Origin: Bacteroidaceae bacterium
GTDB lineage: Bacteria; Bacteroidota; Bacteroidia; Bacteroidales; Barnesiellaceae_A
Direction: 5' to 3'
Assembly: GCA_017935645.1 (NCBI GenBank)
Contig: JAGBHF010000027.1
Coordinates: forward strand, 1 to 53,572
DNA: 53,572 nt
Positions 42,847 to 49,937 of this stretch are shown here, in pieces; the first letter of the stretch is position 1; each line of letters begins with the position of its first letter. Below the pieces are notes generated by a model. It ran no database searches and had not been told where the DNA came from. It saw only the letters and a program-made list of their open reading frames with translations. A program made the position numbers and the translations under genes.

Positions 42847-44949
42847 TTAGCGACTTACATATTTGTGGGTGTATTGTCCCTTGTTGGTTGTCACCTGTAT
42901 GTAATGTATGCCCTTGTATCCATTGGGAATTGTCATCTGCATGGGTGTATTGGCAGGATGCTTTTCTATGTTGTATGTGCCTATAAGCATACCTGTGGCG
43001 TTGTAGATGCGCAATTGTGTGGGATACTCACTTTCGTTATAGTAGAGCGTGAAATCACCGTCGCCTATGGTGGGATACAATTGAATGTTGGTATCGAGTG
43101 CGGGTGATGTTATGTTGCTACTATCGAAGATGTGGCAGAGTCCTCCATATAGGTTTACCTTGCCATGTCCTGCCGACTCGGTGTGGGTTGTGTACTCGTC
43201 TTTAATGGCAGTAAGTTTCAATATCTCCTTGGCCTCTTCGGGTGTCATGTCGGGCTTGGCTTGTAACCATATGGCGTAAGTACCGGTTACAATGGGTGCG
43301 GCCATTGATGTACCCGAGCTGAGTCCGTAGTAAGTTGTGTCATTGTGGAAGACAAACTCATTGGTTGTCATGCCGAACATGTTGCCTATCAACATTTTGT
43401 TATAGGCCGATGTGATAAGGCTTCCCGGTGCGATGATGTCGGGTTTGATGCGACCGTCGGCTGTGTGACCAAGGCTCGAGAAGGGGCTGACGGCATTTAT
43501 CTCATAGCCGGTGGTGTAGTTGTTGCCTCTGATGCACAACTTGCTGTCGTCGGTGGTGTAAGCTCCTACCGATGTGATGCGCTTGCCGGTACCACCGGTC
43601 TCATTGAGTGTCATCAATGTATCGCCGTGTAACCATCCATCGAAGCCGTGAGTGGTGAATACCGTGGCGGGTGCATTGGTCCACATATCCAATCGACCCT
43701 TTTCGCCCTTGACTTTCATCGCAAAATAGCAGTTGCCAATGTTGTTAATGCCGCTTACTACTATTTGGGTATTGTATTTGTTGTTGAATGGTGATAGTTG
43801 CGATGTGGCAGTTACGGTTATTTCACGTTGGAAATAGTTCAGTGTAGTTTCGTATAGAGAATCTAAAGGCATCCAGCCGGTAGCATCGAGAACGGTGTCG
43901 GTGTGACCGTGATAGAATTCAAGGTCGATGTATACAGGCTCTTCACTCCATGCATCTAAGATGGGTATACCGGTTAATCCGGTATGGAACTCGGTGTGTT
44001 CTTCGTCAAAGTCATATCCGAGGTGATAGTATTCATCGCCCGAATTGCCCATTGCTCCAACAATGAGTCGTCCGGGGCCTTGTAATGAGTCGCACATTTG
44101 GTCGAATGCCGAAGTGCCATCGTGCGGGCCGAGAACATTACCGATACTGAGGTTGATAACACAAGGCATACCCAAGCGCTCGGCATAATCGAAAATAAAG
44201 TTGACACCATCGGCAATACCTTCATCATACATGCTTGAGCCTCCTGCATGTTGTGCTTCGACAAGAATGAGCGATGCCTCTCGTGCTACACCTCCATAGG
44301 GCATATCGGGGTAGGCACTGCCTGCTGCTATACCTGTGACGTGTGTGGCATGTGTTTCGATGGCTTCTGTTTGTCCGTTGAGAATTTCTTCCTCGGTATC
44401 ATAAAGTGAGCCGTAGCTGTAGGGTTCGGGGGGTGTGCCACTCTTGTCATTTTGGTTCCATGCCGCTATGATGCGAGTAGAGCCGTCGGCATTGCGAAAC
44501 GCCGCATGATCCCATTGAAAACCAAGGTCGACAATACCCACGATAACGCCTTTGCCCAAATAGGGCTCTGGGGTGTAAATCGATGAGAGTAATTGATCGT
44601 ATCCGATGTAGGGAAGTGCCACGTCGAGCAACAGATGGGATGTTTGTCCGGCATCGATAAAGCTTATCTCGGGGATTTCTCCCAAACGGTCGTACATAGC
44701 TACCGGTACAAGTGCTGTTGCCAAGTCGCCTACTTGTGTTCCTACAATAATACCATATTGTTCTAAGACCTTTGTATCACTTACCTGTAGTGTGGTGTGG
44801 ATGTAATGCTCCTCACCATCGGCTTTCATTCGCTGTACGTTGCTTGTTTGCTTATTAAGTAGTTGCTGTGCCGATGGACTGTATTTGCCTTGTGCCAGTG
44901 ACATCGTGCTACAGATTACGAATAACAGGAAAAAAATTTTTTTCATCAT
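42847..44949 (-). CDS. T9SS-secreted S8 (subtilisin-like) serine protease
   Basis: Extracellular or surface serine protease of 700 residues with a signal peptide (MMKKIFFLLFVICSTMSLAQ) and an I9-like pro-region (about 21-115). The catalytic domain begins with Asp141 (GIVDLGFQWDH), then His200 (ETHATHVTGIAAG), the oxyanion Asn in GAMGNSGDE, and Ser in SSGTSMAAPIVTG. The His box is HATH rather than HGTH and the Asp box is DLG instead of DSG/DTG; the triad residues themselves are kept. The C-terminal ~75 residues are a T9SS sorting domain (LRIYNATGMLIGTYNI ... GIHYIQVTTNKGQYTHKYV). The gene starts only 12 nt after uvrA, suggesting cotranscription. Confidence 0.9.
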   Translation of the reverse strand: MMKKIFFLLFVICSTMSLAQGKYSPSAQQLLNKQTSNVQRMKADGEEHYIHTTLQVSDTKVLEQYGIIVGTQVGDLATALVPVAMYDRLGEIPEISFIDAGQTSHLLLDVALPYIGYDQLLSSIYTPEPYLGKGVIVGIVDLGFQWDHAAFRNADGSTRIIAAWNQNDKSGTPPEPYSYGSLYDTEEEILNGQTEAIETHATHVTGIAAGSAYPDMPYGGVAREASLILVEAQHAGGSSMYDEGIADGVNFIFDYAERLGMPCVINLSIGNVLGPHDGTSAFDQMCDSLQGPGRLIVGAMGNSGDEYYHLGYDFDEEHTEFHTGLTGIPILDAWSEEPVYIDLEFYHGHTDTVLDATGWMPLDSLYETTLNYFQREITVTATSQLSPFNNKYNTQIVVSGINNIGNCYFAMKVKGEKGRLDMWTNAPATVFTTHGFDGWLHGDTLMTLNETGGTGKRITSVGAYTTDDSKLCIRGNNYTTGYEINAVSPFSSLGHTADGRIKPDIIAPGSLITSAYNKMLIGNMFGMTTNEFVFHNDTTYYGLSSGTSMAAPIVTGTYAIWLQAKPDMTPEEAKEILKLTAIKDEYTTHTESAGHGKVNLYGGLCHIFDSSNITSPALDTNIQLYPTIGDGDFTLYYNESEYPTQLRIYNATGMLIGTYNIEKHPANTPMQMTIPNGYKGIHYIQVTTNKGQYTHKYVSR

Positions 44950-47877: not shown

Positions 47878-47908
47878 AAAAAAGAGTCGCTACCACGGGT
47901 AACGGCTC
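47878..47908 (-). terminator. Terminator of the small cysteine-rich lipoprotein gene
   Basis: On the minus strand GAGCCGTTACC and GGTAGCGACTC pair (one mismatch, one wobble) around CGT, followed by TTTTTT. It begins 24 nt after the stop codon. The rest of the 186-nt gap before uvrA shows nothing else. Confidence 0.82.
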
Positions 47909-47931: not shown

Positions 47932-48141
47932 TTATTCAGCTACTACTTCTTCAACAACTGCTTGGCAAGAGTCGCAGGGAACAGCGCAAGAATCGCACTC
48001 GTGTGTAGCGCAAGAGTCGCAAACAACTTCTTCTACAGCTACAACCTCTACAGTTTCCTCAGTAGCCTCAGCGGGTTTGTTTGTGCAAGCTGCGAAAGAT
48101 ACAGCAGCAGCAACAGCGAAGAACAATACTAATTTTTTCAT
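47932..48141 (-). CDS. Small cysteine-rich acidic lipoprotein with three CDSC motifs
   Basis: Protein of 69 residues with its own promoter-like box and terminator. A lipoprotein signal peptide (KKLVLFFAVAAAVSF) ends at the lipobox AAC, so lipidated Cys19 becomes residue 1 of a ~51-residue mature peptide. That peptide is very acidic and Val-rich (EATEETVEVVAVEEVV). It carries Cys41, 44, 49, 52, 56 and 59, arranged as three C-D-S-C units, ending in VVEEVVAE. Six cysteines as three CxxC pairs could hold zinc, iron or copper, or form disulfides in the periplasm. I do not recognise an annotated family; function is unknown. Confidence 0.85.
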   Translation of the reverse strand: MKKLVLFFAVAAAVSFAACTNKPAEATEETVEVVAVEEVVCDSCATHECDSCAVPCDSCQAVVEEVVAE

Positions 48142-48191
48142 TTTTTCTTCTTAATTAAGATAAACAATAACTTGTAGTTTCAAAAACGGCA

Positions 48192-48224
48192 CAAAGGTAG
48201 ATATAAATTTTTGAAATATTGCAA
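48192..48224 (-). promoter_or_regulatory. Promoter of the small cysteine-rich lipoprotein gene
   Basis: Minus-strand TACCTTTG (48192-48199) with TTG (48222-48224) 22 nt upstream. The leader to the ATG is about 45 nt and A-rich. Confidence 0.55.
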
Positions 48225-48275
48225 GGATTTAAGGTTTTTTTTGAATTAATTACCTTAAATCCTTGTATTTATATC

Positions 48276-49937
48276 TTAGTTGGTGTACAAATAGCGTTTG
48301 ATACTGCGTTTGGGAGTCTTTTCGAACTCATTTGCATGCAATTGTATCTTGGCTATTTGCTCGTATGGTGCTACAATTTTGTTTAGTTCTTTGCGATTTT
48401 CTTCCATAATGTTCGGAAGTTCGTCACTGCTGATACCCTCGGCATCCATTGTCTCGAAGTCGGGGAATACAAGGGCGGTGAGTCGACCGTCGCGTTCAAC
48501 AACGAGGCTTTCCATTACGTAGGGTAGGTTGTTGAGTTTGGCTTCAATCTCTTCGGGGTAGATGTTTTGTCCGTTTGCACCCAAGAGCATGGTTTTGCAA
48601 CGACCCTTGATGAATATTGTACCGTCGGGGCCTATTGTACCGAGGTCGCCTGTGTGCAACCAACCATCTTTGTCGATAACAGCGTTGGTGGCATCGTCAT
48701 TCTTGTAGTAGCCTTGCATTACGTGCTCGCCACGTACACATATCTCGCCCACAGTGCTATCGGCACAACTCTTCTCTATCTTGGTCTCAACATAACCAAA
48801 GAGTGTACGACCCGACGAACTAGACTGGAACTCGCGGTGCGGAGTGTAACTGATAAGAGGGGCACATTCGGTCATACCATAACCTACGGTGAAGGGGAAT
48901 TTGATTTTTTTCAAGAATGATTCTACTTCACCATTGAGGGGGGCGCCACCGATAATTACCTCTTCAAACTCTCCACCAAATGCGTCAATGAGTTGTTTGC
49001 GTATCTTGGCGTAAATTTGGTCATTGAGCAAGGGGATGTTCAATGCAAAGCGCATTGCACCTTTACTGATAAGGGGTTGTATCTGCTTGCGATAAATTTT
49101 TTCGAGAATAAGGGGTACACATATAATAAGATTGGGCTTAACCTCGGCAAGTGCCTTAAGCAAGATCTTGGGTGAGGGTGTGCGTCCTAATAATGTAATG
49201 TGTGAGCCGGCTGCCAATGGGGTGAGGAAGTCGAAGGCACATCCGTAGGCGTGTGCCAAGGGGAGGAATGAGAGTGCGCGACTACCTTTGTAGTGAAGGT
49301 GTGAGCGGAGTCCGAAGAGGACATTTCCTGCCAAGTTATTGCCTGTGAGCATTACACCCTTGCTAAATCCGGTTGTTCCCGATGTATAGTTGATAAGTGC
49401 CAACTCTTCGTTGCCATTCTCGGCATATACAACGTCTTCACGAGTGAAGCCATTGGGATATTTTTGAGCGAAAAGGTTATTTACCGAAGCTAAGATTTCA
49501 TCGGCTTTCTCATTGTCTTGTTGAGCTAAAATCTTGAAATTATCTATCGAGATAGCTGCGCGAATGTTGGGGAGTCGTTCCAACTCAAGGTGTTCCCATA
49601 TTTGATTGCTTGAGAAGCACAATTTAGAGTCGGAGTGATTGAGGATGTGGTGCATGTCATGCGGGTTAAACTCTTGCAGGATAGGCACGAGTATTGCACC
49701 GTAAGTTATGACACCAATAAATACTGTACACCATTGAGGTGTGTTCTTACCCACTAATGCTACTTTGTCGCCATGCTTTATGCCACATTCCTTCAAGAAA
49801 ATGTGCAATTTGGCTATTTCGGTAGCAAGGTCTTCATAAGTTAAAGTGTGCTTATTGCTGTAGTCGGTAAGAGCCGGTAGCTCCCAGTTTTCACGAATAC
49901 CGTCTTGATAAATTTGAATAAAACGTTTTTCTATCAT
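48276..49937 (-). CDS. Long-chain fatty-acid/acyl-CoA synthetase, AMP-binding family
   Basis: It activates a carboxylic acid, probably a fatty acid, as acyl-AMP and then acyl-CoA (or transfers it to a carrier). Protein of 553 residues. AMP-binding motifs: YTSGTTGFSKGVML (P-loop-like), GYGMTECAPLI, LHTGDLGTIGPDG and IFIKGRCKTMLLGANGQNIYPEEIE. The C-terminal lysine region is EKTPKRSIKRYLY. It resembles Bacteroidota FadD-like enzymes; the chain-length preference cannot be read from sequence. Single gene. A minus-strand -7 box TACTTTTG lies at 49973-49980. Confidence 0.9.
   Translation of the reverse strand: MIEKRFIQIYQDGIRENWELPALTDYSNKHTLTYEDLATEIAKLHIFLKECGIKHGDKVALVGKNTPQWCTVFIGVITYGAILVPILQEFNPHDMHHILNHSDSKLCFSSNQIWEHLELERLPNIRAAISIDNFKILAQQDNEKADEILASVNNLFAQKYPNGFTREDVVYAENGNEELALINYTSGTTGFSKGVMLTGNNLAGNVLFGLRSHLHYKGSRALSFLPLAHAYGCAFDFLTPLAAGSHITLLGRTPSPKILLKALAEVKPNLIICVPLILEKIYRKQIQPLISKGAMRFALNIPLLNDQIYAKIRKQLIDAFGGEFEEVIIGGAPLNGEVESFLKKIKFPFTVGYGMTECAPLISYTPHREFQSSSSGRTLFGYVETKIEKSCADSTVGEICVRGEHVMQGYYKNDDATNAVIDKDGWLHTGDLGTIGPDGTIFIKGRCKTMLLGANGQNIYPEEIEAKLNNLPYVMESLVVERDGRLTALVFPDFETMDAEGISSDELPNIMEENRKELNKIVAPYEQIAKIQLHANEFEKTPKRSIKRYLYTN

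Follow-up and report, generated by a model that had tools for sequence, protein, structure and literature searches.

A PG1828-type small lipoprotein with a cysteine-bearing tail in a genus of Bacteroidales, and a putative role for its paired thiols

The lipoprotein gene and its transcription signals

The stretch of DNA analysed here, called the window, comprises 53,572 nucleotides of a Bacteroidaceae bacterium and is an entire contig (C66) of an assembly of 2.19 Mb (96 contigs, 95.6% complete). Towards its end, downstream of an AMP-binding acyl-CoA synthetase gene (acs), lies a real gene for a 69-aa lipoprotein (Table 1), which reads MKKLVLFFAVAAAVSFAAC (residues 1-19) followed by TNKPAEATEETVEVVAVEEVVCDSCATHECDSCAVPCDSCQAVVEEVVAE, with the lipobox cysteine at residue 19 and a mature part rich in Val and Glu. 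Six cysteines occur in the 50 residues of the mature part; cysteine content is at most three per 100 residues in all 32 window ORFs of at least 150 aa. The gene is held by eight of the nine genomes of the genus, the ninth (G007) being 85% complete and in about 350 contigs, and the ORF is therefore not a product of chance; these nine genomes, all of one genus, represent the whole family in our collection. Two plus-strand open frames overlap the gene, and nothing in the analysis supports either as a gene.

Table 1. Features of the lipoprotein locus in the window, and two related genes at other loci
Feature	Position	Strand	Basis
PG1828-type small lipoprotein ORF, CDSC variant, 69 aa	47932..48141	-	sequence; NF050142 match
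Signal peptide and lipobox, residues 1-19 (MKKLVLFFAVAAAVSFAAC)	48085..48141	-	sequence
CDSC unit 1, residues 41-44	48010..48021	-	sequence
CDSC unit 2, residues 49-52	47986..47997	-	sequence
CDSC unit 3, residues 56-59	47965..47976	-	sequence
Promoter -7 box TACCTTTG, TAnnTTTG type	48192..48199	-	invariant in aligned leaders
Conserved leader element CGTTTTTGAAAC...TTATTGTTT	48159..48188	-	leader alignment
Intrinsic terminator of lipoprotein gene	47880..47904	-	scan; stem 47888-47904, then T run
14-bp perfect inverted repeat between acs and lipoprotein gene	48222..48265	.	sequence
AMP-binding acyl-CoA synthetase (acs), conserved upstream neighbour	48276..49937	-	Pfam PF00501; synteny
Cys-rich PG1828-type lipoproteins of family f25	L072 1444-1689; L085 2164-2367		downstream of sulfate-permease-family gene

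The gene is preceded by a box of the TAnnTTTG type, the Bacteroidota promoter box, at 58 bases from its ATG. This box is invariant in the 15 aligned leaders and is found 51-75 bases before the start codon in all 18 relatives downstream of acs (window excluded), the relative in G128 having a second copy further upstream; a scan for sigma-70 promoters gave none on the strand of the lipoprotein gene. Across 15 aligned sequences chosen from six groups, the leader (CGTTTTTGAARC...ATTGTTTT) is conserved, and with up to three mismatches allowed its conserved element has a single match in its own genome. Leader and promoter together (48142-48199) show conservation in several Bacteroidales families that exceeds that of the protein tail, and possibly form an RNA-level or translation element; an Rfam scan returned only matches far below the gathering scores. 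Downstream of the gene, stems with T runs comparable to the one in the window follow most of 22 relatives, as judged by eye, while the inverted repeat on the upstream side is probably the terminator of acs. The data support a transcription unit of its own, monocistronic-looking. An earlier sequence-only reading of the window had given the same coordinates, strand, length and lipobox cysteine, with six cysteines in three C-D-S-C units and a Val-rich mature part, all of which the sequence bears out, and its proposal of a dedicated promoter-like box and terminator agrees with the TAnnTTTG box and the scanned stem and T run.

A search of the assembly for ribosomal proteins gave no L16 and, for L12, just a fragment close to the end of a contig, and rpoB/rpoC were therefore taken as the expressed set. 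The codon choice of the lipoprotein gene leans towards this set (mean log frequency difference +0.21), with values of -0.08 to -0.32 for six neighbouring genes, which are themselves the comparison set, and this bias suggests that the gene is highly expressed. Elsewhere in the window, the gene at 42847-44949 encodes a subtilase (PF00082), whose C-terminal end resembles, by eye, a type IX secretion sorting domain.

Family assignment and gene neighbourhood

The window protein matches NF050142, the NCBIfam model for PG1828 family lipoproteins, over residues 1-58 with 42.1 bits (E 1e-10). It has the lipobox signal and the short mature tail of this family, but its score falls short of the curated 50-bit cut-off, so that by the curated rule it is not a full member. 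The same model matches all 18 aligned relatives at E<=1 (best 1.1e-19), and among ten proteins scanned apart, two exceed the cut-off (L019, 58.9 bits; L018, 57.6 bits), and the five Cys-rich ones score 38-49 bits. L018 and L019, whose tails are Cys-free, also lie downstream of acs, at the same locus as the window gene, and judged by locus, leader and signal peptide the window protein is orthologous to full members of the family. The protein is very probably a small lipoprotein of the PG1828 type, and represents a Cys-bearing variant, in one genus, of a small lipoprotein already known in Bacteroidales. Across the order, NF050142 is matched at E<=1e-5 in 169 of 393 genomes, with only 17 above the cut-off and with many of the weak matches depending on the signal peptide.

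PG1828 of Porphyromonas gingivalis, whose family resembles the window protein in its lipobox signal peptide, its size and its short, acidic, low-complexity tail, has been reported to be triacylated (PMC10126205, PMC11225709), to be present in LPS preparations (PMC7352132) and to be the likely source of TLR2 signalling (PMC5693985), and has been called a strong cell activator (PMC6706054); the accessible parts of these papers state no role for the bacterium itself. A literature search found nothing on a Cys-rich or metal-binding version of PG1828-type proteins, subscription papers being mostly beyond its reach. Pfam matches to ARF7EP_C, DUF4995 and DUF6520 were all below their cut-offs and were set aside as composition or signal-peptide matches, and a PDB sequence search gave no match. 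Neither L002/L137 (a 342-aa frame with the look of an RND adaptor, by eye) nor L003, all matches in the protein's own genome, was accepted as a relative of the tail.

In a contig scan of 33 loci, including records of Barnesiella, Coprobacter, Dysgonamonadaceae and Paludibacteraceae, the lipoprotein gene lies directly downstream of acs, on the same strand, in 25, a sample biased to conserved signals since the signal peptide was among the patterns of the scan. L037, with only 34 bases upstream, was outside the synteny comparison; L045 (140 aa, no lipobox) was rejected as a family member and L043 is probably not one. Two tandem acs copies precede the lipoprotein gene in L023, L039 and L040 (two Dysgonamonadaceae records and one Symbiothrix record). 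To avoid the bias of a lipoprotein search, 198 genomes of the order were independently queried with the synthetase: Acs of at least 54% identity was found in 31 genomes (two matches being partial), with the lipoprotein downstream in 19 and not in 12, the inspected stretch in these 12 being about 1 kb, and some of the latter (G032, G145) carry a lipoprotein relative elsewhere in the genome. UvrA is encoded downstream at five of the seven loci of the genus that have 3-kb flanks and, among the other 26 loci, only at L041, and was rejected as a family-wide neighbour. Conservation of the neighbourhood next to uvrA and the acyl-CoA synthetase gene, which the sequence-only reading had proposed to check, thus holds for acs, and for uvrA mainly within the genus.

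Cysteine units in the genus and in a second lineage

The eight genus genomes with the gene have 54 of their 56 tail cysteines within CxxC pairs and contain 27 units of CDSC or CDTC, each protein having between two and five. These units differ synonymously (TGC/TGT, GAC/GAT), and both cysteines are kept while the linkers vary; two of the proteins (G000 and G003) are identical and so do not count as independent. The most distant member, in G008, combines two CDSC units with a single TDSA unit and two cysteines that are not part of a CxxC pair. Beyond the genus, relatives for the most part share this signal peptide, many of them with Cys-free tails of the V/A-D-S-A/V type, and CDSC aligns with these units. 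On this alignment, the V/A-D-S-A repeat units of relatives have become C-D-S-C in the genus.

Among the 63 NF050142 matches counted at E<=1e-8 (a 64th, in a 548-aa frame, was left out), 54 have no cysteine in the mature part and seven have five to ten, namely six of the genus and one (G317) of family f25, the remaining two being a G257 copy with two cysteines and a 236-aa G174 protein with one. Cysteine counts across the family are therefore bimodal, and the six tail cysteines set the window protein apart from the PG1828 family at large. The cysteines are not needed for the core role of the family, since most members have Cys-free tails. The cysteine pattern, which had been called unusual from the sequence alone, is indeed rare, and homologues with conserved cysteines, whose presence had been proposed as a test, do occur in the genus. 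At another locus (L096, G257:C37:33500-38000), two related small lipoprotein genes, one encoding a protein that ends in KCGEGKCGK, lie near a gene for what looks by eye like a c-type-cytochrome-like lipoprotein.

In f25, the tails are Cys-rich in two genomes (L072, six; L085, five) and Cys-free in a third (L087), all three genes lying downstream of a sulfate-permease-family gene (80-81% identical among the three); the f25 protein in G380 has six tail cysteines and, with E 3.2e-8, falls outside the E<=1e-8 set. L072 and L085 share with the window protein the family match, the leader, the TAnnTTTG box and cysteines in an acidic tail. In contrast with the window protein, however, their cysteines stand mostly in CC and DSC arrangements, not in CDSC, and their neighbour is the sulfate-permease-family gene rather than acs. 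Because Cys-rich and Cys-free tails of f25 share one locus, Cys-rich tails probably arose at least twice.

Possible roles of the cysteine-bearing tail

AlphaFold2 models the window protein as a signal helix with no confident structure in the tail (mean pLDDT 53; blocks of ten tail residues at 43-48), and the mature tail is accordingly predicted to be disordered. Our preferred reading, which we hold tentatively, is that of an abundant, disordered, lipid-anchored acidic tail that has gained thiol pairs in this genus, with putative binding of soft metals at the envelope; for metal binding by the tail cysteines itself, we likewise put the chances a little short of even. After lipidation the protein would be transported to the outer membrane, and numerous copies there may form an acidic brush; its paired thiols, beside Asp and Glu, would stay reduced in an anaerobe and could serve as ligands for soft or borderline metals (Zn, Cu, Fe or Ni), and the tethered tail might then act as a metallothionein-like metal buffer at the membrane. 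Soft-metal binding would fit best because, in an anaerobe, a chain that is flexible and tethered carries cysteine pairs beside Asp/Glu. Bacterial metallothioneins are likewise small, fold-poor chains with many CxxC pairs, but the window protein is instead exported, predicted to be lipid-anchored, and acidic; a Pfam scan of it at E<=1 gave no metallothionein model.

Against metal buffering stands the possibility that repeat copying could carry the cysteines along. The tail would then be a mere disordered acidic spacer, in which one unit changed from Val/Ala to Cys was amplified by repeat slippage and the cysteines have no function, as would suit tails that are of low complexity and vary in repeat number and sequence, and relatives in which this gene, at this locus, makes do with a Cys-free tail. 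We consider this unlikely, given that both cysteines of each pair are kept while linkers vary and units differ synonymously, that Cys-rich tails arose in f25 too, and that a change from Val or Ala to Cys takes two base changes per codon. The cysteines could also be redox-active, or cross-link neighbouring lipoproteins by disulfides, and so stabilise the envelope or buffer oxidants; CxxC is the typical spacing of thiol-disulfide motifs, and VKOR is matched in G380, whose f25 lipoprotein is Cys-rich. Yet no thioredoxin-type fold is predicted around CxxC, at the low confidence of the tail model, a Pfam scan of the window protein gave no thioredoxin-like match, and searches of the nine genus genomes yielded no member of the VKOR or DsbB families. 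This absence somewhat favours a reduced, metal-binding state over a disulfide role, as weak and non-specific evidence, absence being the norm in the order (VKOR matches in 19 and DsbB matches in two of 393 genomes). Moreover, VKOR does not track Cys tails, since it has no match in G317, which is Cys-rich, and is present beside Cys-free tails in G145 and G240. A redox or cross-linking role appears quite improbable.

A different emphasis would place selection mainly on the leader RNA and the signal peptide, with the mature tail secondary. Over the 18 relatives downstream of acs, residues 1-19 are on average 81.6% identical to those of the window protein, a mean pulled down by the misaligned, shorter signal of G048, compared with 63.4% for Acs of the same loci, so that the signal peptide is better conserved than both the mature tail and the neighbouring enzyme. 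Such conservation is unusual for a signal peptide, measured against general expectation rather than a control lipoprotein, and may point to a role of the signal peptide or its mRNA. Leu4 is encoded by TTA in all 17 relatives that keep Leu, and the leader is conserved across several families and unique in its own genome. However, most other codons vary synonymously, as under ordinary protein-level selection, Rfam gave no family above its gathering score, and the fixed cysteine pairs suggest that the tail matters too; we regard this explanation as the least probable of those considered.

Returning to soft-metal binding by the tail, a further-reaching and more doubtful version would have an abundant Bacteroidales envelope lipoprotein turned, on two or more occasions, into a disordered metallothionein tethered to the membrane, a lipid-anchored metal sponge that arose when the repeat unit of its acidic tail changed. 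PG1828-type lipoproteins are widespread in Bacteroidales, as the matches at E<=1e-5 indicate, and PG1828 itself is reported in the papers cited above to be immune-stimulating and to co-purify with LPS. Cys-rich tails of two lineages, which share their loci with Cys-free relatives, provide a natural contrast for tail function and, if the cysteines do bind metal, would show a simple way for gut anaerobes to acquire a metal buffer at the envelope.
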